This document shows positions 20,379-35,950 of a DNA stretch of 41,560 nucleotides, piece by piece. The notes beneath the pieces were generated by a model. It searched no databases and was not told where the DNA came from. It saw only the letters and a list, made by a program, of their open reading frames with translations. This DNA comes from Lachnospiraceae bacterium. Its GTDB lineage: Bacteria > Bacillota > Clostridia > Lachnospirales > Lachnospiraceae. The stretch's first letter is position 1; every line of letters begins with the position of its first letter. The stretch is taken from positions 1-41,560 of the forward strand of contig JAFUPV010000010.1 in assembly GCA_017472605.1 (NCBI GenBank), given 5' to 3'. Both the position numbers and the translations under genes were made by a program.

Positions 20379-20466
20379 GCATCCAGGCAGACATGCCAGT
20401 GACATGTCTGGTCGGATCGCGTCTGCATCCAGGCAGACATGCCGGTGACATGTCTGGTCGGATCGC
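20379..20466 (+). repeat. dispersed palindromic element, copies A1 and A2
   Basis: Two 42-base copies (20379-20420 and 20425-20466) differ at one base. Each has GCATCC, AGG, a perfect hairpin CAGACATG/CATGTCTG around a seven-base centre CCRGTGA, then GTCGGAT. Related copies occur at 23369, 27879 (- strand) and 35867. The stretch 20292-20595 otherwise holds only two hairpins and the fucU promoter. Confidence 0.9.
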
Positions 20467-20519
20467 CGAAAAGTTTCGCGGACAGACTGTGGATATTGTA
20501 CAAAATGCAGCAGAGGAAC

Positions 20520-20548
20520 TTGACAGCAGCGCGTGAACTGGTTACAAT
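20520..20548 (+). promoter_or_regulatory. fucU: promoter of fucU
   Basis: Perfect -35 TTGACA (20520-20525), 17-base spacer, TACAAT (20543-20548). Confidence 0.85.
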
Positions 20549-20595
20549 AGGGAAAGATATCTGAATAACGACAGATGATTAAGGGAGGGTTTTTT

Positions 20596-21033
20596 ATGCT
20601 GAAAGGAATTCCGAAGATTTTATCCCCGGAGCTGCTGAAAGTGCTGTGTGAAATGGGGCACAGCGACCGTCTTGTAATTGCAGACGGAAATTTTCCGGCT
20701 GAAACAATGGGAAAGAATGCAAAAGTGATCCGTATGGATGGCCATGGCGCCTGTGAAATTCTGGATGCGATTCTTCAGGTGTTCCCGTTAGATACCTATG
20801 TGGAGCATCCGGTGAACCTGATGGAGGTTATGCCAGGTGACAACGTCGAGACTCCGATCTGGGACGAGTACAAGGCAATCATCGCGAAGCATGACGAGCG
20901 CGGGGAAGCGGTTGTCGGTCACTATGAGCGTTTTGCTTTCTATGAAGAAGCAAAGCAGGTCTATGCCATCATCGCGACCGGTGAAGGTGCTCTTTATGCC
21001 AATGTGATGCTGCAGAAAGGCGTTGTTATTTAA
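20596..21033 (+). CDS. fucU: L-fucose mutarotase (RbsD/FucU family)
   Basis: Interconverts alpha- and beta-anomers of L-fucose so that FucI is supplied with its substrate form. 145 residues, the family length. The N-terminal LKGIPKILSPELLKVLCEMGHSDRLVIADGNFP block holds the catalytic His (MGHSD), and RMDGHGACEILDAILQVFPLD follows. The C-terminal FAFYEEAKQVYAIIATGE holds the conserved Tyr region. Start ATG 20596 has AAGGGAGGG upstream with a T6 spacer; an ATG 21 bases earlier lies before that site. It is expressed from its own strong promoter, 16 bases upstream of an exported WG-repeat gene. Confidence 0.93.
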   Translation: MLKGIPKILSPELLKVLCEMGHSDRLVIADGNFPAETMGKNAKVIRMDGHGACEILDAILQVFPLDTYVEHPVNLMEVMPGDNVETPIWDEYKAIIAKHDERGEAVVGHYERFAFYEEAKQVYAIIATGEGALYANVMLQKGVVI

Positions 21034-21048
21034 CAGGGGGAGTTTACA

Positions 21049-22656
21049 ATGAAAAAGAGATATGGAATTGCGGCGCTGCTGATTGCCTGCTCCAGCGTGA
21101 GCGTGTTCGCGCAGGAAGCGGCAGAAGATACCATTTCGTTTGTTGCGGAATATTCCGACGTCAGCTGGGTAGAGAACAGCAGTCTTCTCTGCATGGAAAC
21201 AGAAACCGGCTGTGCGATGGCAGACATCAATGGAAATCTGCTGACCGGGGCAATCTACGATGACGACATGACCTGGGAATGCGGTCTCGTAATCGGTTCC
21301 GTTCTGGATAAAGACGTGAACTGCAAAGGTGCTTTTGCCGAAGACGGAAGCATCGTCCTTCCGTTCCAGTATGGTGACATTGAGATGTTAAGTACCCAGT
21401 GGGCGGTTGGAATTGTTTTAACAGATGGAACAGAAGCGTCCCATGATTACAAATCCTGGTCAGGAGACAGTTACTGGACCATCAGTACGGTGGATGTCTA
21501 CTACCTTCCGACAAAAACCTGCGTGGCATCTCTGCCGCGTGAAGCGTATGGCGATGCGCAGGCGATGGGAAAGAACCTCAACATTGAGGACCGAAACGGC
21601 GTGGTAACTGCCTATGATTCAGCGTTTAACGAGCTGGGAAGCGGGCTGAGAGGTGTCTGGAGCGAGGATTATGCCGCCTACGACTACGTCACTTATCGGG
21701 AAAATGGTCAGACCGGTCTCAAGGATGCAGAAGGAAATGTTGTGATTGCGCCGATGTTCCAGTCTCTTTACAGCAGATACGGCAACTATTACGAGGCCTA
21801 TAACGGTGAAACCTACGGAATCGTTGACCTGCAGGGAACGGTCAGAGTTCCGGCTGAATATGAAGACATGGATACCTGCTACTATCTCCCCTATGATCCG
21901 GAATTCGACTGCTACGGATATGAAGCAGGCGGATATTTCTGTGTCATCAGTGACGGAAAAATGGGATATGTGGACATGAACGGCGAAATTACCTGTGAGC
22001 CAAAGTATTCTGAATCGGTGATGGAAAACTACGGCGCGTCCGCTCTGCTCAACGACATGGAGGGAAATGTCCATATCATTTCGGCAGACGGTCTGGATAC
22101 GGTTCTCGAGCCTTTTAACAGTGTTTATGCAATGGAATATGGCTCCGGTTTCTATTACCGGGTAACAAACGAGGACTATGATTACGGAATGGTTGACTGG
22201 CACGGAAACTATGTGTTTGAATGTGCCTATAACGACATCGAGATTTCCGGAGACGGAAACTATGTAATGGTACAGAAGGAATACAGTGATCCGTACCAGA
22301 TCTATGAATTAAGTGATCTGACCGCTCAGTCTTCATCCAGTGATCCGGTTGTTGAAGAGACAACAGAAGCTGTGGAAGCGGCGACAACGACAGAAGCGGA
22401 ATCCATGGCGGCAGAAGCAGACATGAGTGCTGTCATTGACATGATCAACAGCGCAGCGACTCTCGTCAAGGTAGATCCGGCAACAAACAGCGCAGCTGCA
22501 GTGACCATGCTTGAGACGGCAGTGACCATGATGAACGGATCCAATGAGGCGGTGGCAAAGCTTCTGGAAAGCACAGTGACCCTGCTGCAGAACGACGCGG
22601 CGGCAAATTCCGGATCCATTCTGACGATCCTGGAACAGGCTGTGAGCATGCTGTAA
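21049..22656 (+). CDS. exported WG-repeat protein
   Basis: A 535-residue secreted protein. Residues 1-21 are a signal peptide cleaved near FA/QE. From about 35 to 420 there are WG-type beta repeats of the form xGxxDxxGxxxxxxxYxD (TGLKDAEGNVVIAPMFQS, YGIVDLQGTVRVPAEYED, MGYVDMNGEITCEPKYSE, YGMVDWHGNYVFECAYND). They probably form a propeller- or solenoid-like surface for binding. A Thr/Glu/Ser-rich linker leads to about 95 C-terminal residues with helical repeats (NSAAAVTMLETAVTMM, NSGSILTILEQAVSML). No sortase or lipid anchor is seen. It sits 16 bases after fucU and 47 before a small membrane-protein gene. Ligand unknown. Confidence 0.82.
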   Translation: MKKRYGIAALLIACSSVSVFAQEAAEDTISFVAEYSDVSWVENSSLLCMETETGCAMADINGNLLTGAIYDDDMTWECGLVIGSVLDKDVNCKGAFAEDGSIVLPFQYGDIEMLSTQWAVGIVLTDGTEASHDYKSWSGDSYWTISTVDVYYLPTKTCVASLPREAYGDAQAMGKNLNIEDRNGVVTAYDSAFNELGSGLRGVWSEDYAAYDYVTYRENGQTGLKDAEGNVVIAPMFQSLYSRYGNYYEAYNGETYGIVDLQGTVRVPAEYEDMDTCYYLPYDPEFDCYGYEAGGYFCVISDGKMGYVDMNGEITCEPKYSESVMENYGASALLNDMEGNVHIISADGLDTVLEPFNSVYAMEYGSGFYYRVTNEDYDYGMVDWHGNYVFECAYNDIEISGDGNYVMVQKEYSDPYQIYELSDLTAQSSSSDPVVEETTEAVEAATTTEAESMAAEADMSAVIDMINSAATLVKVDPATNSAAAVTMLETAVTMMNGSNEAVAKLLESTVTLLQNDAAANSGSILTILEQAVSML

Positions 22657-22703
22657 TCTGCGGAGTATAAAAAACAGAGGAATTCGAAGAAAGGGGGGAT
22701 TTT

Positions 22704-23138
22704 GTGAAACGATCAGATAAAATAATCCGGCGTCTGGGGCACAGCCGTCTGTTAATGGTGCTTCTGGCTGTGCTTGTCTTTCTGCTGGACACAAAATCTT
22801 CAACTATCTTTCTGCGTGAATACGAATCTTTTTGTAATCCGTTCGAGAACACGGTGTACCTGTCTGCCTGTGAAAACAATGTCTGTCAGCAGGCATTTGT
22901 AGAAGAGACAGCGATAAGGACCCAGCAGTTCATACAGGCCGGCGGTCAGACCATGTCTCAGCGAGTCTTTCAGCTGTTTGACGTGCTTCTTCTTGTCATT
23001 CGCTTCGGGCAGCTGCTGATGTTTGCGCTGATCCTCTATCAGACCCGATTTCTCTTTGGCGATCCGCCGTCACTGATTCAGCTGATCCTGCGGATCTGCG
23101 ATGACGAAGACGGAAAAAGGCGCCTTTCCACCATATAA
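22704..23138 (+). CDS. small membrane protein, unknown function
   Basis: A 144-residue protein starting at GTG 22704 with a strong AAGGGGGGA site upstream. Two hydrophobic segments, about 15-29 (LLMVLLAVLVFLL) and 91-112, flank an extracytoplasmic loop holding a Cys pair (ACENNVC) and a third Cys at 44. The N-terminus is basic, so N-in/C-in topology is likely. I recognise no family. The position after the exported WG-repeat gene (47-base gap) suggests that both act at the membrane. Confidence 0.6.
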   Translation: MKRSDKIIRRLGHSRLLMVLLAVLVFLLDTKSSTIFLREYESFCNPFENTVYLSACENNVCQQAFVEETAIRTQQFIQAGGQTMSQRVFQLFDVLLLVIRFGQLLMFALILYQTRFLFGDPPSLIQLILRICDDEDGKRRLSTI

Positions 23139-23199
23139 GCAATCAGAGTTTGTGCAGAGCACAGACCGCTCTGCCTGTATGAGTGGAAGGAGAAAAACG

Positions 23200-23307
23200 A
23201 TGGTAACAGAAATCATTATTGTAGTTGTATGTGTTCTTTGCGCGGTGGCAGCGTTCTGGTGCCGCAACATGGAAGAGAACGGAGAACCGGCAGAAAAGAA
23301 CGACTGA
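23200..23307 (+). CDS. 35-residue single-pass membrane peptide
   Basis: A short frame with an excellent AAGGAG site before ATG 23200. Residues 3-20 form one membrane helix (TEIIIVVVCVLCAVAAFW) with two Cys inside, then an acidic/basic tail (CRNMEENGEPAEKND). It begins 61 bases after the preceding gene and ends just before a terminator, so it is the last gene of the fucU operon. Function unknown. An in-frame start at 23101 would overlap the previous gene and lacks a site. Confidence 0.55.
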   Translation: MVTEIIIVVVCVLCAVAAFWCRNMEENGEPAEKND

Positions 23308-23327
23308 AATTACATATGAGAACGATG

Positions 23328-23364
23328 CAGCAGGTACGTCCGCGGGATGTACCTGCTGTTTTTT
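23328..23364 (+). terminator. intrinsic terminator
   Basis: Perfect 10-bp stem CAGCAGGTAC (23328-23337) with GTACCTGCTG (23349-23358) followed by six T. Confidence 0.93.
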
Positions 23365-23368
23365 CTGT

Positions 23369-23412
23369 GCATCCGTGCGAATGGGCCGGTGACTGATTCA
23401 GTCCATTCGCAC
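23369..23412 (+). repeat. dispersed palindromic element, copy B
   Basis: Begins GCATCC four bases after the terminator T run. GTGCGAATGG (23375-23384) pairs perfectly with CCATTCGCAC (23403-23412). The centre GCCGGTGAC and the TTCAGTC before the right arm match copy D closely. The gap 23308-23630 otherwise holds the terminator, the marR promoter and its operator. Confidence 0.8.
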
Positions 23413-23490
23413 GTGCAGCTGCGCATGCTGTCTGTCCGGACAAAGTATGCTGGTAAATTGTGAAAGTTTTTTGTACTTGGGACAGAGCTG

Positions 23491-23518
23491 TTGACAGGCA
23501 GGAAAAACATAGTATAAT
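23491..23518 (+). promoter_or_regulatory. promoter of the marR-ABC exporter operon
   Basis: Consensus TTGACA (23491-23496), 16-base spacer, perfect TATAAT (23513-23518). Confidence 0.9.
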
Positions 23519-23523
23519 AGGTG

Positions 23524-23570
23524 GATAGTTAGTGGACTGACAATCAATGACTTAACAGTCAATGACCTGA
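23524..23570. promoter_or_regulatory. candidate MarR operator at the transcription start
   Basis: GATAGTTAGT (23524-23533) and ACTGACAATC (23536-23545) form a palindrome with 8 of 10 matching positions around GG, directly over the predicted start. It runs into 15-base direct repeats (23541-23555 and 23556-23570, core TCAATGAC). This fits autorepression by the MarR protein. Confidence 0.6.
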
Positions 23571-23630
23571 CAGACAGCGGAGGAAAAACTGCTGGTCAGT
23601 CTGCTTGAAAAATGCCGGAAGGAGGAATCA

Positions 23631-24104
23631 ATTACGAGTCAAAACGAACACATTGGCTTCGAGATTCGCTGGATTCAGAATCTGATCGAGGCCAGTATGA
23701 GAGAAAGAAGGGAAAAGGACGGATTCTGTGTCACTCAGATTCAGCACATGATCCTGCGCTATCTGGACCTGAATCGGGAAAAAGAAGTCTTCCAGAAAGA
23801 TCTGGAGGAACAGTTCCATGTATCCCGGGCAACCATTTCCAGCACCCTCCAGGTGATGGAACGCAATGGAATGATTCTGCGGACGGCAGTCAGCCAGGAT
23901 GCGCGGCTGAAAAAAATCACACCGACAGAGAAGGCAATGGCGTTTGCAGATATGGGAAGGCGGAATGTGGAAGAGATGGAAGCCTGCCTGGGAAAAGGAA
24001 TGACACCGGAAGAACACCGGGAGCTGCTGCGTCTTCTGCGTCTGGTACGCTGCAATCTGGAAGCGGAAAATGGCCGGATCTGTGAGGAGGCATTGAAAAA
24101 ATAA
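23631..24104 (+). CDS. MarR-family transcriptional regulator (apparent ATT start)
   Basis: A 157-residue winged-helix repressor that likely controls itself and the ABC exporter. The wHTH core is clear: TQIQHMILRYLDLNREKEVFQKDLEEQF, HVSRATISSTLQVMERNGMILR (recognition helix), then the wing and LTxxE-like TPTEKA, with dimerisation helices at both ends. The first in-frame ATG (23697) would remove the N-terminal dimerisation helix read as IGFEIRWIQNLIEASMRE. Upstream in frame there is no ATG, GTG or TTG. An ATT at 23631 sits five bases after a perfect AAGGAGG site, so ATT is the most likely start. The ABC genes follow after 19 bases. Confidence 0.85.
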   Translation: MTSQNEHIGFEIRWIQNLIEASMRERREKDGFCVTQIQHMILRYLDLNREKEVFQKDLEEQFHVSRATISSTLQVMERNGMILRTAVSQDARLKKITPTEKAMAFADMGRRNVEEMEACLGKGMTPEEHRELLRLLRLVRCNLEAENGRICEEALKK

Positions 24105-24123
24105 GAAGAAGGAGAATGAGTTT

Positions 24124-25872
24124 ATGCTGAAAACGCTTGGAGCTCAGGTAAAAGAGTTTAAGAAACCAAGTATTATCACACCAATCTGTATGGTGATCGA
24201 AGTAATCATGGAAATGATCATTCCATTGATGATGGCGTCGATCGTGGATGACGGAATTAATGCAGGAAACATGTCCCATATTTATCTGATCGGCGGCTGC
24301 ATGGTCCTGGCAGCAGTCGTATCGCTGAGCAGCGGATTTGCAGGCGGCTTTTTTGCCGCAAAAGCCTCAACCGGTTTTGCAAGAAATCTGCGGGAAGCCA
24401 TGTTTACCAACATTCAGACCTTTTCGTTTTCCAACATTGACAAGTACAGCACGGCAGGTCTGATCACCCGTCTGACAACGGACGTCAACAACATTCAGAA
24501 TGCATATCAGATGCTGTTACGCATGTGCATCCGCGCACCGTTCACCCTGATCTGCGCCATGTGCATGGCTTTCATGGTAAACGCAAAAGTTGCGTCCATC
24601 TATCTGGTGGCAGTCATCTTCCTGGGAATCGGTATCTTTACCATTGCCGGACGTACCATGAAAACCTTCCGCAGCATCTTCAAAAAATACGATGATCTCA
24701 ATGCCAGCGTACAGGAAAATGTATCCGCGATCCGCGTTGTAAAAGCATATGTAAGAGAAGAGCATGAGATCAGCAAGTTCAAAAAAGCAAGTGAGACCGT
24801 CTGCCGTCTGTTTACCAGTGCGGAAAACGTGCTTGCCCTGAACGGACCGCTGATGCAGTTTACCGTGTATACCTGTATTCTGTTAATCAGCTTCCTCGGT
24901 GCCCGCATGATCGTTTCCGAGACCATGACAACCGGCGACCTGATGAGCCTGCTTGCATACTGCATGAACATTCTGTCCAGCCTGATGATGGTATCCATGA
25001 TCTTTGTCATGCTTACCATGAGCATGGCCAGTGCGGAGCGTATCTGTGAAGTGCTGAATGAAACCAGTGATATCACAAATCCGGAAAATCCGGACTTTCA
25101 GGTAACGGACGGAAGCATCCGTTTTGAAAACGTGTCCTTCCGCTATAACCGGAACAGTGAAAAACCGGTGCTGGATCAGATCAATCTGGACATTCGTTCC
25201 GGTGAGACCATCGGTATTCTTGGCGGAACCGGAAGCGCGAAAACAAGTCTTGTCAATCTGATCAGCCGCCTCTACGACGTGTCGGAAGGATGCGTTTATG
25301 TGGGGGGAAAGGATGTCCGTTCCTATGACATCGAAACACTGAGAAACGAAGTGTCTGTCGTTCTGCAGAAGAATGTTCTGTTCTCCGGAACCATTCTGGA
25401 GAATCTGCGCTGGGGCGATGAAAACGCGACGGAAGAGGAGTGCATCCATGCCTGTCAGCTTGCCTGCGCCGACGAATTTATCGAGCGGATGCCGGAGAAG
25501 TATCATACATACATTGAGCAGGGAGGCACCAATGTTTCAGGAGGTCAGAAACAGCGTCTCTGCATTGCCAGAGCCCTTCTGAAGAAGCCGAAGATTCTGA
25601 TTCTTGACGACAGCACCAGTGCAGTCGATACGGCAACCGATGCAAAAATCCGCAGAGCGTTTGCGCAGGAGATTCCGGGAACAACAAAGATTATCATCGC
25701 ACAGCGTATTTCCAGCATCGAACATGCCGACCGCGTGATCGTGATGGAAGACGGAAGGATCGATGCGTTTGATACACCGGAGAATCTGCTGAAATCCAAT
25801 GAAATTTACCGCGATGTCTATGAGCAGCAGACGTCAGGCGGCGGTGATTTTGATGAGAAGGGAGGTATGTAA
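24124..25872 (+). CDS. heterodimeric ABC exporter, half with degenerate catalytic site
   Basis: A 582-residue fused permease/ATPase. The first 310 residues are a six-helix ABC type-1 exporter domain; the ATPase domain follows. Walker A is GGTGSAKT from 367 (Ala replaces the usual Gly before Lys), the signature is VSGGQ, and Walker B is ILILDD with Asp at 496 where the catalytic Glu normally sits. This matches the non-hydrolysing half of heterodimeric exporters such as LmrCD or BmrCD. Start ATG 24124 has AAGGAG about ten bases upstream. The partner gene starts two bases after its stop. Probably drug, lipid or peptide export under MarR control. Confidence 0.93.
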   Translation: MLKTLGAQVKEFKKPSIITPICMVIEVIMEMIIPLMMASIVDDGINAGNMSHIYLIGGCMVLAAVVSLSSGFAGGFFAAKASTGFARNLREAMFTNIQTFSFSNIDKYSTAGLITRLTTDVNNIQNAYQMLLRMCIRAPFTLICAMCMAFMVNAKVASIYLVAVIFLGIGIFTIAGRTMKTFRSIFKKYDDLNASVQENVSAIRVVKAYVREEHEISKFKKASETVCRLFTSAENVLALNGPLMQFTVYTCILLISFLGARMIVSETMTTGDLMSLLAYCMNILSSLMMVSMIFVMLTMSMASAERICEVLNETSDITNPENPDFQVTDGSIRFENVSFRYNRNSEKPVLDQINLDIRSGETIGILGGTGSAKTSLVNLISRLYDVSEGCVYVGGKDVRSYDIETLRNEVSVVLQKNVLFSGTILENLRWGDENATEEECIHACQLACADEFIERMPEKYHTYIEQGGTNVSGGQKQRLCIARALLKKPKILILDDSTSAVDTATDAKIRRAFAQEIPGTTKIIIAQRISSIEHADRVIVMEDGRIDAFDTPENLLKSNEIYRDVYEQQTSGGGDFDEKGGM

Positions 25873-25874
25873 TC

Positions 25875-27824
25875 ATGGCAGAACCGAATGCAGGAAGAAA
25901 GCCGGTGCAGGCAAAACCACAGAATGGTCCGGGACCAAGAGGGCCGAGAGGACCAAGACCGAAGCTGGAAGATCCCATGGGACTGTTCCGCCGGCTGATG
26001 AAATTTGTGTTAAAGGATTACGCGCCGCTGGCCGTGATTGTTCTGGTGTGCATCATTGTTTCGGTACTGGCGAGTGTTCAGGGAACAATGTTTACCCAGA
26101 CCCTGATTGATGATTACATCACCCCGCTGATCGGGCAGCAGTCGCCGGATTTCTCCGGACTGCTGAAAGCAATCGCAAGAGTTGCGTGCTTCTACGCCCT
26201 TGGAATTGCTGCCTCCTATACGCAGGCAAGAATCATGGTCGTGATCACACAGGGAATGCAGAAAAATTTCCGTGATGCGCTTTTCTCTCACATGGAAAGC
26301 CTTCCGATCAGCTATTTTGACCAGCATCCCCATGGCGACATCATGTCTGTCTACACCAACGATATTGACACGCTGCGCCAGATGATCAGCCAGTCTATCC
26401 CCCAGATCATCAACAGCGTGATCACCATTGTCAGCGTCCTGGTCAGCATGATCATGCTGAGTGTTCCGCTGACCGCCGTAACATTGGTTATGGTGGCTGT
26501 GATGCTGTTTACCACCGGAAAAGTGGCAGGACTCTCCGGCAGCAACTTCGTTGGACAGCAGCGTGCGCTGGGTGATGTGAATGGTTACATTGAAGAGATG
26601 ATGAACGGCCAGAAGGTTGTAAAAGTCTTCTGCCATGAAGAAAAAACGCTGGAAGAATTCAAACGCCGTAACAATGAGCTGTTTGAAAATGCCAACCGCG
26701 CCAACCGCTATGCCAATGTGATGGGACCGATCAATGCCCAGCTCGGCAACATGAGCTATGTTCTCTGCGCAACCGTGGGCGGCGTTCTGGCAATCAATGG
26801 CTGGACCGGACTGACAGTCGGAAAGCTGGCCAGCTTCCTGACCTTCAACAAGAGCTTCAACATGCCGATCAACCAGGTCAGCCAGCAGTTTAACAGCATC
26901 ATCATGGCTCTTGCCGGCGCGGAGCGTATCTTCAAGCTGCTTGACGAGAAGCCGGAGGTGGATGAGGGCTATGTAACGCTGGTTCGCGCGAAAAAGGAAA
27001 ACGGTCAGCTGATCGAAGTGCCGCACCGTACCGGAACCTGGGCCTGGAAGCATCCACACAAGGCGGACGGAACCGTTACCTACACCGAGCTGAAGGGCGA
27101 TGTTGTGTTTGACGGCGTTGATTTCGGATACATTCCGGAAAAGATTGTTCTGCACGATGTAAAACTCTATGCAACGCCGGGACAGAAGATTGCCTTTGTC
27201 GGTTCCACCGGTGCAGGAAAAACGACAATCACCAACCTGATCAACCGCTTCTACGACATTCAGGACGGTAAAATCCGGTATGACGGAATCAACATCAACA
27301 AGATCAAAAAAGCAGATCTGCGCCGATCCCTTGGCATCGTTCTGCAGGATACCCATCTCTTCACCGGAACGGTCATGGAAAACATCCGCTATGGAAAGCT
27401 GGATGCCACCGACGAGGAAGTTTACGCGGCAGCAAGGCTGGCGAATGCGGACGGATTCATCCGTCGTCTGCCTCAGGGCTACCAGACTGTGCTGACCGGT
27501 GACGGAAGCAATCTGAGCCAGGGACAGCGTCAGTTGCTGGCCATCGCCCGTGCGGCAGTCGCTGATCCGCCGGTACTGATCCTGGATGAAGCGACCTCTT
27601 CTATCGATACCCGTACAGAGAAAATTGTTCAGGACGGCATGGATAAGCTGATGGCAGGCAGAACCACCTTCGTGATTGCCCATCGTCTGTCTACTGTTCG
27701 AAACAGCAACTGCATCATGGTTCTGGAACAGGGTCGGATCATCGAGCGGGGAACTCATGAGGAACTGATTGAACAGAAGGGAAAATATTATCAGCTTTAC
27801 ACAGGCTCAGCGATCGGCAGCTGA
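25875..27824 (+). CDS. heterodimeric ABC exporter, catalytically complete half
   Basis: A 649-residue permease/ATPase. A basic, Pro/Gly-rich N-terminal extension of about 35 residues (NGPGPRGPRGPRPK) precedes the six-helix exporter domain. The ATPase domain has a regular Walker A GSTGAGKTT from 443, signature LSQGQ, and Walker B LILDE with the catalytic Glu at 572. Between domains an insertion of about 40 residues (VPHRTGTWAWKHPHKADG) is unusual and also seen in the larger half of several Firmicute heterodimers. ATG 25875 has GGGAGG upstream. With the preceding gene it forms the asymmetric two-site exporter. Its last codons overlap repeat element C. Confidence 0.94.
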   Translation: MAEPNAGRKPVQAKPQNGPGPRGPRGPRPKLEDPMGLFRRLMKFVLKDYAPLAVIVLVCIIVSVLASVQGTMFTQTLIDDYITPLIGQQSPDFSGLLKAIARVACFYALGIAASYTQARIMVVITQGMQKNFRDALFSHMESLPISYFDQHPHGDIMSVYTNDIDTLRQMISQSIPQIINSVITIVSVLVSMIMLSVPLTAVTLVMVAVMLFTTGKVAGLSGSNFVGQQRALGDVNGYIEEMMNGQKVVKVFCHEEKTLEEFKRRNNELFENANRANRYANVMGPINAQLGNMSYVLCATVGGVLAINGWTGLTVGKLASFLTFNKSFNMPINQVSQQFNSIIMALAGAERIFKLLDEKPEVDEGYVTLVRAKKENGQLIEVPHRTGTWAWKHPHKADGTVTYTELKGDVVFDGVDFGYIPEKIVLHDVKLYATPGQKIAFVGSTGAGKTTITNLINRFYDIQDGKIRYDGININKIKKADLRRSLGIVLQDTHLFTGTVMENIRYGKLDATDEEVYAAARLANADGFIRRLPQGYQTVLTGDGSNLSQGQRQLLAIARAAVADPPVLILDEATSSIDTRTEKIVQDGMDKLMAGRTTFVIAHRLSTVRNSNCIMVLEQGRIIERGTHEELIEQKGKYYQLYTGSAIGS

Positions 27825-27879
27825 CCGAAGCCTGGGCGAAATCCGATCGAACGTGCCGCTGGCATGTTCGCCTGGATGC
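27821..27879 (-). repeat. dispersed palindromic element, copy C (inverted)
   Basis: Read on the - strand: GCATCC (27879-27874), AGG, hairpin arms CGAACATG and CACGTTCG around CCAGCGG, then ATCGGAT (ending 27841), and further on TTCGGTCAG (27829-27821), which is also present in copy D. The + strand stop codon of the ABC gene (27822-27824) lies inside this outer box. Confidence 0.8.
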
Positions 27880-27893
27880 ATAAGCAGCACAGA

Positions 27894-27936
27894 GAGCGGC
27901 TGGTATATGGCACTGCCATATACCGGCCGCTCTTTC
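27894..27936 (+). terminator. long hairpin, probably bidirectional terminator
   Basis: AGCGGCTGGTATATGGCA (27895-27912) pairs with TGCCATATACCGGCCGCT (27914-27931), 18 bases per arm with one wobble and an almost absent loop, then CTTTCCC. Confidence 0.75.
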
Positions 27937-27997
27937 CCGTCATCAAAGCTTCCCTGGTGATGAATGGAAAAGATTCGGAAAGAGCTAAGATTGTCGA

Positions 27998-28026
27998 TTG
28001 CGGAGCATGCATATTTGTGATAAAGT
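27998..28026 (+). promoter_or_regulatory. candidate promoter for the cysteine-cluster gene
   Basis: TTGCGG (27998-28003), 17-base spacer, TAAAGT (28021-28026). Confidence 0.5.
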
Positions 28027-28780: not shown

Positions 28781-28873
28781 AGATAAAAAAGTTGTCGTTC
28801 TGGCTGCTGAGCGTATACCTGCAGCATGGACGGTAAGGAAAAAACTTTCTATGGAAAGAGAGGAGAACCATTG

Positions 28874-30280
28874 ATGAATATTGGTAAGCGAAAGGCTGCG
28901 GCCCGCGGCACGGGTGCAAACCGGGGCATTATTGAAGGAACCATCTGGAAACAGCTGCTGCTGTTCTTTTTTCCCATTTTGTTCGGCGCTTTTTTCCAGC
29001 AGCTTTATAATACCGTTGACGCGGTGATCGTCGGACGGTTTGTGGGAACCAATGAGCTGGCTGCTGTAGGCGGGTCAACGGGAACGCTGATCAATCTGCT
29101 GTTCGGCTTTTTTATCGGTCTTTCTTCCGGCGCCACGGTAATCATTGCCCAGTTCTATGGCGCGGGAGACGAAACCAATGTGAGCCGTGCCGTACATACG
29201 GCAGTCGCACTTGCCATAGTGGGCGGTGCGGTGCTGACTGTGATTGGACAGCTTCTGGGAAAAATTGCCCTTCGCTGGATGCAGACTCCGGACGAGGTAA
29301 TCGGCTTTGCGGAAATCTATCTGCGGATCTTTTTCCTTGGAATGATTCCTAACCTTTATTACAACATCTGTGCAGCAATTCTCCGAGCGGTGGGAGATTC
29401 CAGACGTCCGCTGTACATTCTGATCTTCACCTGTCTGATGAATGTGGTTCTTGACCTGCTGTTTGTTGTAGTCTTCCGTCTTTCCGTGACCGGCGTCGCA
29501 GTTGCGACAGTTCTCTCCCAGCTGATCAGCGCCGTTCTGATCACAGTCTGCCTGATGCGGACAAAAGACTGTTACCGTCTGGACTGGAAACAGGTTCGCT
29601 TCCACAAAACGCTCCTGATCCGAATCATTCAGATCGGACTTCCGGCCGGCTTTCAGTCCGTCATGTACAATCTGGCCAATATTGTGATTCAGTCCAACGT
29701 CAATCTGCTGGGAAGCAGCACAATGGCGGCTTACACGGCATATTCCAAGATTGATTCCGTCTTCTGGATGCTCATGAACGCATTCGGTGTGTCCGTTTCC
29801 ACCTTCAGCGGCCAGAATTTCGGTGCAGGCCGGATCGACCGCGTCAAAAAGAGCATGAAAATCTGTCTGGCAATGGCTATGGGAACGACCATCGGATTGA
29901 GTGTCCTGCTTCACTTCGTTGGGGAGTATGTGTACATGCTGTTCTCTGGTGATGAAGAGGTAATCCGGATCGGCATGCAGATCCTCCATTTTCTGACGCC
30001 GATCTACTTTACCTATGTCAGCATCGAAGTGATTTCCGGAACCGTCCGTGCCATGGGCTTTGTAGTGGTCCCCATGCTGATGACCTGCGGCGGTGTCTGC
30101 GTGCTGCGTCTTCTCTGGCTCTTCCTGGTGGTACCATCAAACCGTACCATCACCATGATCCTGTTCAGCTATCCGCTGTCCTGGGTGGTAACGACGATCC
30201 TGTTTTTCCTGTATTACTGGTATCTGAACCGCAGCGGGAAAATCAGGGCGAGAGGGATTCTGAACGATGGAACCATCTGA
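28874..30280 (+). CDS. MATE-family multidrug efflux transporter (first)
   Basis: A 468-residue integral membrane antiporter of the MATE family, with about 12 helices. Typical features: N-terminal WKQLLLFFFPILFGAFFQQLYNTVDAVIVGRFVG, the LINLLFGFFIGLSSGATVIIAQFYGA loop, and the symmetry-related second half with SGQNFGAGR. Exports organic cations or drugs with Na+ or H+. ATG 28874 has AGGAG nine bases upstream; earlier starts lack the site. A second MATE gene follows after 188 bases with no obvious terminator. The two are paralogous but clearly diverged. Confidence 0.93.
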   Translation: MNIGKRKAAARGTGANRGIIEGTIWKQLLLFFFPILFGAFFQQLYNTVDAVIVGRFVGTNELAAVGGSTGTLINLLFGFFIGLSSGATVIIAQFYGAGDETNVSRAVHTAVALAIVGGAVLTVIGQLLGKIALRWMQTPDEVIGFAEIYLRIFFLGMIPNLYYNICAAILRAVGDSRRPLYILIFTCLMNVVLDLLFVVVFRLSVTGVAVATVLSQLISAVLITVCLMRTKDCYRLDWKQVRFHKTLLIRIIQIGLPAGFQSVMYNLANIVIQSNVNLLGSSTMAAYTAYSKIDSVFWMLMNAFGVSVSTFSGQNFGAGRIDRVKKSMKICLAMAMGTTIGLSVLLHFVGEYVYMLFSGDEEVIRIGMQILHFLTPIYFTYVSIEVISGTVRAMGFVVVPMLMTCGGVCVLRLLWLFLVVPSNRTITMILFSYPLSWVVTTILFFLYYWYLNRSGKIRARGILNDGTI

Positions 30281-30468
30281 GCGCAGAAGCAGTGAACCGG
30301 CAGGAGGTGCCGCAGACTGAGAAAAACGGACGGGCCGGGAATTGGGAGATGAGGAACGGCAGCGAATCTGCGCTGGGATGAAAATCAGGAGTGCAGAAGA
30401 ATCGGTTCGCAGCGAATCGGGCGCAGAGGCGCCAAAGAGGGAATAGAAAATGAGAAGGGAATAATAAC

Positions 30469-31860
30469 ATGAAATGGAAAGAAAAATTTCTGGGTGATAA
30501 GGCCTTCTACCGGATGATCCTGATGGTGGCGATTCCGATTATTGTCCAGAACGGAATTACAAACTTTGTCAACCTGCTTGACAACATCATGGTCGGCCAG
30601 CTGGGAACGGAGTCCATGTCCGGCGTATCCATTGCCAACCAGCTGATCAACGTATATAATATCTGTATTTTCGGCGGCATGTCCGGTGCGGGAATCTTTA
30701 CTGCCCAGTATTTTGGAAAAGGCGATCAGGAAGGCATCCGCAGCACATTCCGCTTCAAATGCCTGACTGCTCTGATCATGATTGCTGCCGGACTGCTGAT
30801 TCTTGGATTTGGCGGAAGCAAACTGGTTCATCTGTTCCTGAACGAAGAAGGATCGGCAGCATCCATTGAAATCACATGGAGTGAAAGCATGAAATATCTT
30901 CACATCATGATGATCGGGCTTGTCCCCTATGCGATTGGGCAGGTCTATGTCAGCACGCTCCGCGAAACCGGAGAGACCATGCTTCCGATGAAAGCGGGAA
31001 TCGCGGCGATCCTTGTCAATCTTGTGTTCAACTACCTGCTGATCTATGGCAGCTTCGGATTCCCGCGCCTTGGTGTGGAGGGCGCTGCCATTGCTACTGT
31101 TCTGTCCCGATTTGTCGAACTGGGGATCGTAGTGATCTGGACCCATACCCATAAGGAGCGCATGCCCTATGTGGAAGGCATTTACCGTACCATGAAAGTG
31201 CCGTTTGCTCTTTTAAAGCAGATCCTGGCAAAAGGAGCGCCGCTGATGATCAATGAAGTGCTCTGGGCATCCGGATCTGCGACGCTTGCTCAGTGCTACT
31301 CCATGCGCGGACTGGAAGCGGTGGCTGCGATCAATATCAGCTACACAATTGCCAATCTGTTCAATGTGATCTTCATGTCTTTCGGAACGGTAATTGCCAT
31401 TGTTGTCGGCAGCCAGCTGGGAGCAGGAAAACTGGAAGAGGCAAAGAAAACGGACATAAAAATCATCTTTTTCGTTGTCTGCGTCTGCATTGCAGTGGGA
31501 AGCCTGATGGCCGCGTTTGCGCCGGCATTCCCCAGACTTTACCAGACCTCGGATCAGGTACGGAGCCTGGCGGTGCAGCTGATCCGCGTCCTTGCCCTGT
31601 TCATGCCTGTCATGGGCTTCACCCATGCGTCTTATTTTACCATGCGTTCCGGAGGGAAGACCATCATCACCTTCCTGTTTGACAGCGTGTTCATGTGGGT
31701 CATCGTCTTTCCGGTTGCCTACATTCTGGGACATCACACCACGGTTCCGCTGATCCCCATGTACATCATCTGCCAGTCCACCGATCTGATCAAAGCGGTC
31801 ATTGGAGGTGTGCTGATCCAGAAAGGTGTATGGATCAACAACATGGTGGAAGACATCTGA
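30469..31860 (+). CDS. MATE-family multidrug efflux transporter (second)
   Basis: A 463-residue MATE antiporter with about 12 membrane helices. Family features are AIPIIVQNGITNFVNLLDNIMVGQLGTESMSGVSIANQL in the first half, the QYFGKGD loop and the second-half VGSQLGAGKLEEAKK loop. Start ATG 30469 has GAAGGGAA upstream. It is more distant from the first MATE than a recent tandem duplication would be. The 30281-30468 gap is purine-rich and shows nothing I can name. A nitroreductase gene follows after 136 bases. Confidence 0.93.
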   Translation: MKWKEKFLGDKAFYRMILMVAIPIIVQNGITNFVNLLDNIMVGQLGTESMSGVSIANQLINVYNICIFGGMSGAGIFTAQYFGKGDQEGIRSTFRFKCLTALIMIAAGLLILGFGGSKLVHLFLNEEGSAASIEITWSESMKYLHIMMIGLVPYAIGQVYVSTLRETGETMLPMKAGIAAILVNLVFNYLLIYGSFGFPRLGVEGAAIATVLSRFVELGIVVIWTHTHKERMPYVEGIYRTMKVPFALLKQILAKGAPLMINEVLWASGSATLAQCYSMRGLEAVAAINISYTIANLFNVIFMSFGTVIAIVVGSQLGAGKLEEAKKTDIKIIFFVVCVCIAVGSLMAAFAPAFPRLYQTSDQVRSLAVQLIRVLALFMPVMGFTHASYFTMRSGGKTIITFLFDSVFMWVIVFPVAYILGHHTTVPLIPMYIICQSTDLIKAVIGGVLIQKGVWINNMVEDI

Positions 31861-31996
31861 TGGCAGATTATAAAACAGGAAACACAGGGAGTGAACCCTT
31901 TGGAAACGAAAGGACATAAAAACAAACGCCGCAAAAAATCATCAGAAACCGATGGTAACGTCGGCGAATCCATAAAACGATCAGGAGGAATGAAAC

Positions 31997-32581
31997 ATGG
32001 AATTAATGGAATTACTGAAAACAAGACGTACCTACCGCCGCTTTGACCAGAGCCGCCCGGTGCCGCAGGATGTAGTGGAGGACATCATCCGCTCCCAGCA
32101 GTATGCTTCCTGCGGAAACAACAGACAGCCGCTGCGCTATGCGGTAGTGCAGACACCGGAGCTGGTGGAAAAGGTCTATGCTCAGGTAAAGTGGGCGGCA
32201 TCCCTTCCGCCGGAGCAGGGAACACCGAAGGACGGAGAGCATCCGACGCTGTTTGTGGCTGTGCTTGAGGACCTGGGGCTGCGCAATGCCATAACCGGCT
32301 GTGATGCCGGTCTTGCTATCAGCAACATGACACTTGCTGCATGGAATAAAGGTGTGGGAAGCTGCATCATGGCAAACATTAAGCGCACAGAGATCATGGA
32401 GATCCTTGGACTGGATCCGGAGAAGGTCAGCATTCACAGTGTAATCGCCTTCGGCTATCCGACCCACAAGAGCATCATTCAGGAAGTGGAAGAGGGTGAG
32501 CCGCTGGCCTACTATCTGAATGAGAACAGGGATTATGTGGTACCGCGCCATAAGACAGAGGCGGTTGTCACAATCCTGTAA
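31997..32581 (+). CDS. nitroreductase-family flavoprotein
   Basis: A 194-residue FMN-dependent NAD(P)H oxidoreductase of the nitroreductase fold. The N-terminal FMN-phosphate motif RRTYRRFD lies at about 10-17, with ASCGNNRQPLRYAVV at about 37-51, then the dimer core DAGLAISNMTLAAWNKGVGSCIM and a late VIAFGYPTHK. The substrate is unknown; members reduce nitroaromatics, quinones or flavins. Start ATG 31997 has AGGAGG seven bases upstream. It closes the efflux region and is followed by a terminator. Confidence 0.92.
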   Translation: MELMELLKTRRTYRRFDQSRPVPQDVVEDIIRSQQYASCGNNRQPLRYAVVQTPELVEKVYAQVKWAASLPPEQGTPKDGEHPTLFVAVLEDLGLRNAITGCDAGLAISNMTLAAWNKGVGSCIMANIKRTEIMEILGLDPEKVSIHSVIAFGYPTHKSIIQEVEEGEPLAYYLNENRDYVVPRHKTEAVVTIL

Positions 32582-32639
32582 TCGGCAGGCTTTGTAAGAG
32601 GCAGTGCCGCTCTGACACAGAATGTTTCAAGCAAAAAAG

Positions 32640-32684
32640 ACGGGCAGTTTCTGGTCCATGGGGATTAGAAGCGGCCCGTTTTTT
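32640..32684 (+). terminator. intrinsic terminator
   Basis: ACGGGC (32640-32645) pairs with GCCCGT (32674-32679) followed by a T run. The stretch 32691-32859 is AT-rich and shows no gene or motif that I can support. Confidence 0.7.
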
Positions 32685-32859
32685 ACGATCGCGGAGTTTT
32701 GTCAGGAATATTTGAACAGTACTGTCTGCCCGTGTGCTTGCGACTGGCTTTCACGCGAAATGTACAGCTTTAATCGGGGGCAGTTGAATTATTGGCAGAT
32801 AATAATTTTTGGAATTCCGATTGCTTCGTAAAGCTGTCAGTCAATTAAAAAAAGTGTCG

Positions 32860-32908
32860 ACCCTAAATATAGTGGGAATGCGATTGACAAAACCACAAGA
32901 TGTTGTAT
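32860..32908. promoter_or_regulatory. candidate pair of NrdR boxes
   Basis: ACCCTAAATATAGTGG (32860-32875) matches the 16-base NrdR palindrome ACACTATATATAGTGT at 13 positions. A weaker second box, CCACAAGATGTTGTAT (32893-32908), starts 33 bases later, about three helical turns, and overlaps the nrdD promoter. NrdR represses ribonucleotide reductase genes through paired boxes of this kind. Confidence 0.7.
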
Positions 32909-32911
32909 AAT
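32884..32911 (+). promoter_or_regulatory. nrdD: promoter of nrdD
   Basis: TTGACA (32884-32889), 16-base spacer, TATAAT (32906-32911), both perfect. The second NrdR box covers the spacer. Confidence 0.9.
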
Positions 32912-33006
32912 GAATATGCGATCCGAAGAAGAATTCGTTTGTGTGCGGATGTGCCGAAGGCACGGGATCATTTCTGCACAAATACATAAGATACCGGAGG
33001 GGTGCC

Positions 33007-35169
33007 ATGAAGATTATTAAGCGGAGCGGCATGGAAGTCGCTTTTGATTTAAATAAGATAATGACTGCGGTCGAAAAAGCAAACAACAGTGTGGTGGAAG
33101 AAGAGCGTCTGACACAGGAACAGATCGACCGGATCTCACAGAACGTGGAAGAACAGTGCAATTGCGTCAATCGTGCACTGAATGTAGAAGAGATCCAGGA
33201 CCTTGTTGAGGACCAGATCATGTCAGAAGGGGCCTATGCGGTAGCAAGAAACTACATCACCTACCGCTATAAACGCGCGCTGGTGCGCAAAGCCAATTCT
33301 ACCGACAAACAGATCCTCAGTCTGCTGGAGTGCAACAACGAAGAGGTCAAGCAGGAAAATTCCAATAAAAATCCGACAGTCAACAGCGTTCAGAGAGACT
33401 ACATCGCCGGTGAAGTCAGCAAAGACATCACAAGACGTTTTCTGCTGCCGGAAGACATTGTGGATGCCCATGAGCAGGGCGTGATCCATTTCCACGACTC
33501 CGACTATTTTGCCCAGCACATGCACAACTGCTGTCTGATCAATCTGGAGGATATGCTTCAGAACGGTACGGTAATCAGTGAGACCATGATTGATAAGCCA
33601 AAGAGCTTCTCCACTGCCTGCAACATCGCAACGCAGGGAATTGCCCAGATTGCCAGCTCTCAGTACGGCGGTCAGAGCATCTCTCTTGCTCATCTGGCAC
33701 CGTTTGTCCAGGTCAGCCGTGAAAAATTCCGCCGCATGGTAAGAGAAGAACTGACTGCTTCCGGAATCTGCGCGACAGACGATCAGATCAATGAAATTGC
33801 CGAACAGCGCGTAAAAGAGGAGATCAACCGCGGCGTGCAGATGATCCAGTACCAGGTAATCACACTGATGACTACCAACGGCCAGGCACCGTTCATCACC
33901 GTGTTCATGTACATCGATGAGGTGCCGGAAGGACAGACAAGAGAGGATCTGGTAGCCATCATTGAGGAAATGCTTCATCAGCGGATCAAAGGTGTTAAAA
34001 ACGAAAAAGGCGTGTACATCACACCTGCCTTCCCGAAGCTGATCTATGTGCTGGAAGAGGACAACATCCATGAGGACAGCAAGTACTACTATCTGACAAA
34101 GCTGGCTGCCCAGTGTACCGCAAAGCGCATGGTTCCGGACTACATTTCCGAGAAAATCATGAAACAGCTAAAGGACGGAAACTGCTACCCCTGCATGGGA
34201 TGCCGTTCCTTCCTGACTGTGTACCATGATGAACAGGAGAAACCGAAGTTCTACGGCCGCTTCAATCAGGGTGTGGTAACGCTTAACCTGGTGGACATTG
34301 CCTGCTCCTCCGGAAAAGACATGGATCGTTTCTGGCAGCTGATGGATGAGCGCCTGGATCTGTGCTACCGCGCGCTGATGTGCCGCCACAACCGTCTGAA
34401 AGGAACGCCTTCCGATGTTGCGCCGATCCTGTGGCAGTACGGAGCGCTCAGCCGTCTGAAAAAGGGAGAAAAGATTGACAAGCTGCTTTACAACGGCTAT
34501 TCCACCATCTCTCTTGGCTATGCTGGTCTGTGCGAGTGTACCCGTTACATGATGGGCGTTTCTCACACGGAGGCGGACGGAACCGCGTTTGCGCTGGCTG
34601 TCATGAAACGTCTGAATGATGCGTGTGCAGCGTGGAGAAAGGAGACTTCCATCGATTTCAGTCTCTATGGAACGCCGCTTGAGTCAACCACCTACAAGTT
34701 TGCGAAGTGTCTGCAGAAGCGTTTCGGCAAGATTGAAGGCGTAACGGACAAGAACTATATCACAAACAGCTACCATGTCCATGTGACGGAGCCGATCAAC
34801 GCGTTTGAGAAACTGAGATTCGAAGCCCAGTTCCAGGCACTTTCACCGGGAGGAGCCATCAGCTATGTGGAAGTTCCCAACATGAACAACAACCTGGAAG
34901 CAGTCCTGTCTGTCATGAAATACATCTATGACAACATCATGTATGCGGAACTGAATACCAAGAGTGACTACTGCCAGATCTGCGGCTATGACGGAGAAAT
35001 CACGATTGTGAACGATGAGGACGGCAAACTGGTCTGGGAGTGCCCCAACTGCAAAAACCGTGATCAGGACAAGATGAATGTGGCCCGGAGAACCTGCGGA
35101 TATATCGGAACTCAGTTCTGGAATCAGGGACGTACCCAGGAAATCAGAGAACGTGTGCTTCACCTGTAA
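33007..35169 (+). CDS. nrdD: anaerobic ribonucleoside-triphosphate reductase
   Basis: Class III glycyl-radical enzyme that reduces NTPs to dNTPs without oxygen. 720 residues. An N-terminal ATP-cone (MKIIKRSGMEVAFDLNKIMTAV) senses ATP/dATP. The core has HFHDSDYFAQHMHNCCLINLEDML, PCMGCRSFL, and NLVDIACSS. Near the C-terminus, CQICG and CPNC bind zinc, followed by the glycyl-radical motif RTCGYIG at 695-701. Start ATG 33007 has GGAGG six bases upstream. The activase gene nrdG is not adjacent, which is unusual. Confidence 0.96.
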   Translation: MKIIKRSGMEVAFDLNKIMTAVEKANNSVVEEERLTQEQIDRISQNVEEQCNCVNRALNVEEIQDLVEDQIMSEGAYAVARNYITYRYKRALVRKANSTDKQILSLLECNNEEVKQENSNKNPTVNSVQRDYIAGEVSKDITRRFLLPEDIVDAHEQGVIHFHDSDYFAQHMHNCCLINLEDMLQNGTVISETMIDKPKSFSTACNIATQGIAQIASSQYGGQSISLAHLAPFVQVSREKFRRMVREELTASGICATDDQINEIAEQRVKEEINRGVQMIQYQVITLMTTNGQAPFITVFMYIDEVPEGQTREDLVAIIEEMLHQRIKGVKNEKGVYITPAFPKLIYVLEEDNIHEDSKYYYLTKLAAQCTAKRMVPDYISEKIMKQLKDGNCYPCMGCRSFLTVYHDEQEKPKFYGRFNQGVVTLNLVDIACSSGKDMDRFWQLMDERLDLCYRALMCRHNRLKGTPSDVAPILWQYGALSRLKKGEKIDKLLYNGYSTISLGYAGLCECTRYMMGVSHTEADGTAFALAVMKRLNDACAAWRKETSIDFSLYGTPLESTTYKFAKCLQKRFGKIEGVTDKNYITNSYHVHVTEPINAFEKLRFEAQFQALSPGGAISYVEVPNMNNNLEAVLSVMKYIYDNIMYAELNTKSDYCQICGYDGEITIVNDEDGKLVWECPNCKNRDQDKMNVARRTCGYIGTQFWNQGRTQEIRERVLHL

Positions 35170-35270
35170 CTGTATCGGGAAGACAGACAGACGGATGGCT
35201 GCGAAACGGGGAGCGTGCAGGGATATTTCACTGCAGAGACGGATAAATTGATTGGAAAAGATAAAAACGC

Positions 35271-35299
35271 TTGAAAAATGATGCAAGTTGTGATATAAG
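35271..35299 (+). promoter_or_regulatory. promoter of the BlaI-type gene
   Basis: TTGAAA (35271-35276), 17-base spacer, TATAAG (35294-35299). The gap 35170-35405 shows nothing else. Confidence 0.6.
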
Positions 35300-35405
35300 T
35301 AAACCAGAGTCTGCTTTGCCACAAAATGTACGCGTGCTGAGGTCATGCTGCGGACAAAGCATGGAATATCGATCCAAGGATCGGGAAAACGAAAGGAGTC
35401 ACAAT

Positions 35406-35798
35406 ATGCAGAAGGAACAGATCATGCCAATGCTTTCTGATGGCGAGTTTGAGATCATGGAGTGTGTCTGGTGTTCAGAAAAAGCACCGACTCAGACTGG
35501 TATCATGCGCTGGGTAAACGAGAAAAACAATAAAACTCTTAAGGTAGCTACAATCGCAACCTACATCCGCCGCATCATGTGGAAGGGATATCTGGAGAAG
35601 ATCGACAAGAATGACGGACATCCGGTATACCATGCACTGGTATCCAGAGATGAGTATTTTGCAAGAACTTCTGATGAATTCTACAAGAGATGGGGCGTAG
35701 GAAGAGTATTCCAGCTTGCTGCAAACTACTTTGTAAAGGCAGATGAGAGCGCACAGGAAGAGTTTATCAATACCTGCAACGAAATGAGAAACAAATAA
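35406..35798 (+). CDS. BlaI/MecI-family transcriptional repressor
   Basis: A 130-residue winged-helix dimeric repressor. The N-terminal wHTH reads MLSDGEFEIMECVWCSEKAPTQTGIM, then LKVATIATYIRRIMWKGYLEKID as the recognition helix and wing, ending in the VYHALVSRDEY segment of BlaI. The C-terminal half forms the dimer helices. In classical systems BlaI is cleaved by a BlaR1 sensor; no blaR1 or beta-lactamase gene is nearby, so its target and signal are unknown. ATG 35406 has AAAGGAG upstream; longer starts overlap the promoter. It is a single-gene unit with a terminator. Confidence 0.88.
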   Translation: MQKEQIMPMLSDGEFEIMECVWCSEKAPTQTGIMRWVNEKNNKTLKVATIATYIRRIMWKGYLEKIDKNDGHPVYHALVSRDEYFARTSDEFYKRWGVGRVFQLAANYFVKADESAQEEFINTCNEMRNK

Positions 35799-35821
35799 AA
35801 AATACCATGTATGAAACAGAG

Positions 35822-35860
35822 CCGGACTGTGAGAGACTTCCCATAGTCCGGTTTTCTTTT
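35822..35860 (+). terminator. intrinsic terminator
   Basis: CCGGACT (35822-35828) pairs with AGTCCGG (35845-35851), followed by TTTTCTTTT. Confidence 0.8.
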
Positions 35861-35866
35861 GCTTAT

Positions 35867-35950
35867 GCATCCAGGCGAATGTGCCGGCGACACGTTCAGT
35901 CGGATTTCCCCACCCTCGAGCGGCCGTTCCAATGACACGTTCGGTCAGAC
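35867..35950 (+). repeat. dispersed palindromic element, copy D with partial second copy
   Basis: GCATCC (35867-35872), AGG, arms CGAATGTG and CACGTTCA around CCGGCGA, then GTCGGAT (to 35905). A partial second copy (35929-35950: CCAATGA, CACGTTCG, GTCAGAC) follows 45 bases later, the same spacing as A1 to A2. Confidence 0.8.

Follow-up and report, generated by a model that had tools for sequence, protein, structure and literature searches.

Palindromic miniature inverted-repeat transposable elements (MITEs) derived from IS200/IS605 insert 3' of a short motif, cause no duplication and use a hairpin as substrate, and the core boxes of integron attC sites read RYYYAAC/GTTRRRY. Repetitive extragenic palindromic (REP) elements have been reported mainly from Proteobacteria, and those with a CGTC tag mainly from Alphaproteobacteria (excerpts of PMC3733652). 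The dissemination of REPs has been called poorly understood (excerpt of PMC8266576), and neither Firmicutes nor Clostridia are mentioned in the excerpts of PMC3733652 and PMC2817692. The insertions of group IIC introns lie a short spacer away from a DNA stem-loop, on its 3' side (excerpt of PMC10190682). Here we describe a family of short hairpin elements from a Lachnospiraceae bacterium (GCA_017472605.1). It was recognised in a preliminary description of the window, a 41,560-bp stretch which is the whole of one contig (JAFUPV010000010.1, C53) of the source genome (G000; 3.68-Mb assembly, 75 contigs, 95% complete). The family is real, mobile and REP-like, has a clear target preference, and is new relative to the literature searched: no description of it was found in work on Lachnospiraceae, Firmicutes or gut REP-like repeats, which is not proof of absence in print. 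In this family of gut Lachnospiraceae, one species holds far more copies than its kin, one empty site is base-precise, the target preference is clear and the expected transposase was not found. Two questions thus become testable, namely which enzyme moves REP-like hairpins without a Y1 protein, and whether folded DNA at terminators is the substrate.

Comparison with known hairpin elements

The 46-nt consensus of the unit is GYTTATRC-ATCC-AGG-CGAACGTG-CCAGTGA-CACGTTCG-GTC-GGATT. The unit is oriented, 45–46 bp long, and runs from a 5' linker and ATCC through an irregular zone of 3 nt and a variable arm of 8 bp to the conserved 7-nt loop CCRGYGR, followed by the complementary arm, a second 3-nt zone and GGATT; the usual tandem spacing is likewise 45–46 bp.

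With REPs of the GTAG superfamily, which are linked to TnpA-REP or REP-associated tyrosine transposases (RAYT), the element shares a 37-bp imperfect palindrome with a conserved irregular stem zone, more than 100 copies, an intergenic place, an uneven copy number between relatives and presence/absence differences. It differs in that no Y1 transposase was found in the source genome, pairs are direct rather than inverted, the consensus start GYTTATRC carries no GTAG tag (GNAG occurs in most, not all, of 27 copies from other genera), and the element lies on one side of terminator hairpins, in Lachnospiraceae. Because size, copy number, intergenic place and irregular stem agree while GTAG, Y1 and inverted pairs do not, we regard the family as REP-like but do not file it as a RAYT REP. 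The IS200/IS605-derived MITEs are alike in inserting 3' of a short motif without duplication and in their hairpin substrate, but have two ends where our element is a single hairpin, and no TnpA was found in the source genome. By inspection, the attC boxes are absent from the consensus. The CGTC-tagged REPs are also high-copy palindromes without a known dedicated transposase (excerpt of PMC3733652), whereas CGTC is absent, by inspection, from the foot of our consensus. The place of group IIC introns, a short spacer beyond a stem-loop (excerpt of PMC10190682), is similar too, but the present element is 45 bp long and contains neither ribozyme nor reverse transcriptase (RT).

Copy number and distribution of the family

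A covariance model built from 30 copies (R1) was used to search the source genome, where the best 150 of 2337 candidates were scored. At E<=0.01 it found 119 distinct places (121 rows, 2 of which are reverse-strand re-hits of near-perfect palindromes), and at least 142 matches at E<=1. A pattern search allowing up to 2 mismatches gave 233 matches versus 30 for the reversed control pattern, and with fixed N10/N10 spacing the numbers were 85 and 0. Only one of 97 non-tandem copies was called genic by our home-made gene caller. The genome-wide data therefore bear out the preliminary description of a dispersed REP-like element with a maintained hairpin and no named family: many further copies exist, and pairing of the arms is kept among them. 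The outer box was partly fixed by the search pattern used to collect copies, so its constancy is not independent evidence.

The family is distributed unevenly. R1 found no copies in the two same-genus genomes (G001 and G002), which are 63–84% alike to the window stretch where they match; at three places read in G001 the element is missing, with junctions that are not precise. With model R2 (best 150 candidates scored per genome, reverse-strand re-hits included), match rows numbered 121 in G000, 36 in G432, 35 in G306, 25 in G429, 14 in G417 and 1–7 in eleven other genomes, and 0 in G001 and G305. Across 397 family genomes, R1 was applied to the best 14 candidates per genome alongside the pattern ATCC-N10-GCCRGYGRC-N10-GGAT. 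With one mismatch the pattern matched in 78 genomes (85 matches in G000, 14 in G306, 6 in G417), and many of the single matches in other genomes look like chance. Scanning one genome per species with an exact pattern turned up 20 loci, from Schaedlerella arabinosiphila, Hespellia, Roseburia, Lachnotalea, Clostridium and Lachnospiraceae records, with 4 loci from 'uncultured bacterium' metagenome-assembled genomes; the pattern is narrow, picked to match few copies of the source type, and the scan perhaps left out the source genome. Spread by phages or plasmids was rejected, as there were 0 matches in viral contigs (two patterns), plasmids (the A1–A2 pair of the window as query) and phages (one 56-base copy as query).

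Preference for terminator-like hairpins

We call a copy without another copy before it a first copy (n = 89), and distinguish copies behind a same-sense gene (class A) from copies whose 3' end lies at the stop codon of an opposite-strand gene (class B). Matches shorter than 44 nt were left out of this analysis, and the terminator score, like the gene caller, was home-made; retraining the gene caller changed the classes little (class A from 59 to 60, class B 18 both times). A hairpin followed by a T-run lies 5' of 62% of first copies (55 of 89), versus 4% and 3% on the downstream side and 1% at 600 random window sites, coding included. Among T-rich sites free of open reading frames (ORFs), 35 of 532 have such a hairpin compared with 32 of 38 elements (p 1e-27); these sites are equally T-rich, so T-richness alone is no explanation. 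In 38 class A copies whose stem is uninterrupted, the unit lies 0 to 20 nt from the stem, and in 18 of them 5–7 nt.

Behind same-sense genes (n = 60) the hairpin is upstream of 44 copies and downstream of 4. In the 18 class B copies the 3' end is within about 20 nt of the opposite gene's stop codon, or slightly over it, and the hairpin lies on the far side of the element: upstream in 8 of 18 and downstream in none, while a fold below -12 kcal/mol is found upstream in 16 of 18 and downstream in 8 of 18. The called strand of the opposite genes was confirmed by Pfam in 9 of 10 cases, including GrpE, EF-G and a carbamoyl-phosphate synthase. The hairpin thus stands on the same side whichever strand the gene is on, if less often beside opposite genes, which indicates that the orientation of the element follows the hairpin and not the gene. 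The 11 remaining copies have a hairpin upstream in 3 and downstream in 0, and in other genomes it is upstream of 17 of 27 copies and downstream of none.

Other sequences were seen at similar places. A second repeat family (TTTACGCGAGCAGCGAGTCGGGCGAGGGCGCTTGCGC...) likewise begins right after terminator T-runs or after hairpin-element copies, at L144, L147, L148, L166 and L167 (C55, C66, C3, C9 and C72 of the source genome). At L025, about 1480–1531 and 1109–1397 (C66), a group II intron (RF02001, RF01998) starts directly 3' of a fully complementary copy, with its RT split across two reading frames. Given the stem-loop need of group IIC introns (excerpt of PMC10190682), a similar landing place may be in use by two different elements.

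Presence/absence, flanks and arrays

A locus of Schaedlerella arabinosiphila supplies the clearest sign of mobility. In G428 a 45-bp unit stands between CTGATT and CATG, and the same locus has no unit in G439 and G440 (CTTATT|CATTCG) or in G425 (CTGATT|CATGG, followed by other sequence). A unit present in one genome and missing after ATT in its relatives indicates that the family is mobile. At a second locus the element is missing from G430, G425 and G435, with no base-precise junction, and at a third it is common to G428, G430 and G425. A further precise empty site was sought and none was obtained; there, the sequence of the relative departs before the element is reached. In three Schaedlerella-group genomes, a conserved sequence found 3' of copies was considered as an autonomous partner and rejected, being an orthologous region.

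No target-site duplication was detected among 69 singletons of the source genome, where left and right flank triplets are equal in 13 versus 11.2 after shuffling (p 0.27); the last two flank bases agree in 35 versus 30.7 (p 0.051). Since the triplets match little beyond shuffling, the terminal ATT is most likely part of the element.

Among the 119 places, 28 pairs starting within 200 bp of each other are on the same strand and 0 on opposite strands. Of 11 adjacent pairs compared, 2 are out of register, one differs at 15 of 38 positions and the other eight at 0–6, while unlinked copies differ by about 25%. Judging from these sequences, arrays probably grow mainly by local duplication. Two 5'-truncated copies, C47:15991 and C65:927 (L054, L059), keep only the right arm and GGAT, each with a full copy directly after it.

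Copies in the window and their surroundings

The five copies named in the preliminary description are real, as GCATCC-N10-GCCRGYGNC occurs exactly at 20379 (A1), 20425 (A2), 23369 (B), 27879 on the minus strand (C) and 35867 (D), and nowhere else in the window. With 3 mismatches allowed there are 24 matches, a number reached in 0 of 100 shuffles (mean 14). The features are as follows.

20328..20372, plus strand: hairpin GGATGGGATG...CATCTCATCC with a T-rich tail, directly 5' of copy A1 (read from the sequence)
20373..20418, plus strand: copy A1, one 46-bp unit, core ATCC...GGAT at 20381–20417 (R1 56.6 bits, genome E 8.1e-11)
20419..20464, plus strand: copy A2, direct tandem unit (R1 68.2 bits over 20419–20470, E 8.1e-14)
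23327..23362, plus strand: terminator-like stem and T-run directly 5' of copy B
23363..23414, plus strand: copy B, with GCATCC and arms at 23375–23384 and 23403–23412 (R1 42.6 bits, E 3.5e-7; fold)
27834..27885, minus strand: copy C, core at 27840–27877 (R1 65.7 bits, E 3.5e-13)
27894..27932, minus strand: hairpin 5' of copy C (read from the sequence; terminator score 23.7)
35818..35860, plus strand: terminator-like stem with T-run, immediately 5' of copy D and following a penicillinase-repressor-like gene
35861..35912, plus strand: copy D, core at 35869–35906 (R1 69.4 bits, E 3.8e-14)
35929..35950, plus strand: right half of a decayed further copy, CCAATGACACGTTCGGTCAGAC (sequence and half-motif scan)

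The hairpin directly 5' of copies A1, B, C and D had been missed before; A2 follows A1. At A1 this hairpin sits between the genes for L-fucose isomerase and FucU (Pfam). The match of copy C ends 9 nt from the stop codon of an ABC-transporter gene (25875–27824), and its hairpin, with no clear T-run behind it, is downstream of that gene on the plus strand. The arms of A1, CAGACATG/CATGTCTG, form a DNA hairpin on folding, and the cores of A and C fold as single-stranded DNA with z of -2.4 to -3.9 relative to shuffles. The cores of A1 and A2 are identical but for 1 of 38 positions; this pair is likely a local 46-bp duplication, to go by its near-identity, and is not counted as independent evidence.

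As to the plan GCATCC...RTCGGAT proposed for all copies, the GCATCC/CCRGYG core is indeed present in all five, but copy B has no RTCGGAT or GGAT box. It retains GCATCC and GCCGGTGAC, and its longer, re-spaced arms (GTGCGAATGG/CCATTCGCAC) pair over an 18-nt loop rather than 7 nt. The "further conserved box" TTCGGTCAG is no separate part: with one mismatch it occurs 12 times in the window versus 10.5 expected, beyond copy D it is the right arm of the decayed copy (about 35929–35950), and beyond copy C it shares bases with the ABC-transporter stop codon.

Stem covariation and irregular zones

The co-varying arms, first noticed in the window, recur genome-wide. In 115 aligned matches, both partners change in 9 of 12 pairs (4 of 500 shuffles reach this) and the covariation score is above all 500 shuffles; this alignment was fitted to the model and is thus biased towards structure. 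We also analysed 92 ungapped copies, leaving out 27 of the 119 places because their match length is not 52 nt. They include 59 distinct arm genotypes, and where both sides differ from the consensus, 36 changes keep Watson-Crick pairing and 10 do not. Fully complementary arm pairs number 11; 2000 shuffles of the arms gave 2.0 on average and never more than 7. One-side changes are common too, 33 leading to a G.T pair and 67 leaving the position without a standard pair. When copies from other genera are included, both partners change in 7 of 8 inner pairs and 94% of inner cells are paired; 40 of 500 shuffles equal the data in how many further pair types they show.

Over the 59 genotypes, mismatches that would be G.U in sense RNA (G.T, 34) and in antisense RNA (A.C, 35) are equally frequent, which points to DNA, or to no strand preference, rather than to RNA. 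Columns 13–15 versus 39–41 are unpaired or wobble in most copies of the source genome: among 86 distinct cores, 13/41 is A.C in 59, 14/40 is G.T in 67 and 15/39 is non-standard in 74. This irregular zone is weaker in other genera. At the loop, C24/A30 is a nearly fixed mismatch (77 of 86). Two copies, C34:10507 and C39:23407, are near-perfect palindromes extending into the flank. The preliminary description took the arms as a sign of selection for the hairpin; a maintained covarying stem is confirmed, but selection is not the sole reading, as the equal G.T and A.C counts and the palindromic and re-spaced copies also fit hairpin-templated copying.

Search for the mover

TnpA-REP, the mover suggested by the resemblance to REPs, was not found: the source genome has 0 matches to Y1_Tnp (PF01797), while the same search was positive in 5 of 14 control genomes. 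Among 18 other genomes chosen for full or related copies, Y1_Tnp is present in 10 and missing from 8. Where there are at least 14 match rows, only G429 has it; G306 (35 rows), G417 (14) and G432 (36) do not. A RAYT link was therefore rejected for the inconsistent presence of PF01797 across the source genome and the 18 others, and a Y1 route for the element is not supported. The ORFs in four loci, read for a cognate gene near copies, were by eye ordinary cellular genes and one group II intron RT; no family-library search was made.

Proposed mechanism and alternatives

We favour, with a probability of roughly 60%, a family of short non-autonomous, REP-like mobile hairpin elements that prefer other hairpins as target and are moved in trans by a putative enzyme. 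A single strand would fold into the imperfect hairpin, and the trans-acting enzyme would read loop, foot and irregular zone and move it. The unit, bringing its own ATT at the 3' end, would be joined 3' of (A)TT, preferably a few bases past another hairpin, mostly an intrinsic terminator that may be actively recognised; tandem arrays would then form mostly through local duplication of units.

Several observations weigh against this reading. No mover enzyme was identified. By score, 34 of 89 first copies, and 10 of the 18 beside opposite genes, have no terminator-like hairpin, and the base-precise insertion of G428 has none either (score 0), so that the hairpin is at most a preference. Only one junction is base-precise, with a flank identity of 64–88%. 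The 38-nt core of copy D alone folds no better than shuffles as DNA (z -0.98), the linker GYTTATRC of the source genome is mostly ACGNAGT in other genera, and the covariation could stem from templated arm repair.

This last process, in which, once an arm has mutated, synthesis templated by the hairpin carries the sequence of one arm over to the other, is compatible with any mover and is a tentative but serious account of the covariation in place of selection. It could explain the palindromic and re-spaced copies and some of the covariation: in copy B the complementary arms are new, longer and differently spaced, the two near-perfect palindromes run into the flank, and G.T is not in excess. However, the irregular zone beside the arms stays uncorrected in most copies (13/41 A.C in 59 of 86, 15/39 a standard pair in only 12 of 86). 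An ordinary RAYT-type REP, spread by a Y1 (HUH) tyrosine transposase which has since disappeared, is encoded in the ~5% that was not sequenced or has diverged beyond the reach of PF01797, is somewhat less probable and on balance unlikely. In its favour are the imperfect stem with a conserved irregular zone, as E. coli TnpA-REP needs (excerpt of PMC8266576), a foot of GAAG, GCAG, GTAG or GGAG in most copies from other genera, insertion behind a short motif with no duplication, and the Y1 genes of 10 of 18 genomes, but the Y1 search found nothing in the source genome or in three copy-rich others, the consensus lacks GNAG and inverted pairs do not occur.

Reverse transcription, aided by the RT of a group IIC-type intron sharing the target of hairpin and short spacer, is improbable. 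A group II intron (RF02001) does lie directly 3' of the L025 copy, group IIC ribonucleoproteins need a DNA stem-loop 5' of the insertion site (excerpt of PMC10190682), and two clear copies are without their 5' half but retain the 3' end; but this is a single intron next to a single copy, there is no ribozyme in the element, the flank of the base-precise insertion lacks a stem-loop, and the only two clear truncations are both beside full copies, where the search was biased. We disfavour still more a hairpin that functions as RNA at the 3' ends of mRNAs, was retained by selection and multiplied through chance duplication. The place beside terminators, the covariation and the conserved loop would fit, whereas an RNA stem should keep G.U, and G.T and A.C are equal; moreover, the majority of copies come after the terminator of a gene on their own strand and others between stop codon and terminator in reverse sense, and none were found in the two same-genus genomes. 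There is also no Rfam match: at the gathering threshold the window gave only four tRNAs, and 6 element loci at E<=1 gave one unrelated match. Least probable of all is a MITE of the DDE type, which would have terminal inverted repeats and duplicate its target, for although the element is small, intergenic and high in copy, ATT stands on both sides of the G428 junction and the last two flank bases agree slightly above shuffled, the flank triplets are equal hardly more often than by shuffling, and by inspection no terminal inverted repeat extends past ATCC/GGAT.

It is possible, though doubtful, that a new class of mobile DNA is involved, a 45-bp hairpin with DNA hairpins, mostly terminators, as preferred target and a mover other than a Y1 transposase. 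If so, terminators would be a general landing pad in these bacteria, with the hairpin element, the second repeat family and group II introns making parallel use of it.

Related hairpins and other repeats

Matches with about 21 nt more inside the hairpin occur at L257 1501–1559 (G417), two more places in G417 and G306:C14:65654. Weakly matching hairpins with a GCCAGTGRC loop and other feet were seen in further family genomes (L061, L062, L063, L065, L067), and G009 has two weakly matching hairpins with this loop ~230 bp apart in repeated sequence. Schaedlerella-group genomes contain another dispersed near-perfect palindrome, GTTACATGTCACACCT...AGGTGTGACATGTAAC, at L244 about 2042–2080 (G425) and at many places in G428 and G430. 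In the window itself, direct repeats with 21-nt spacing at 1–146, the contig end, are a possible cause of the assembly break, and those with 36-nt spacing at 3388–3819 are probably coding.

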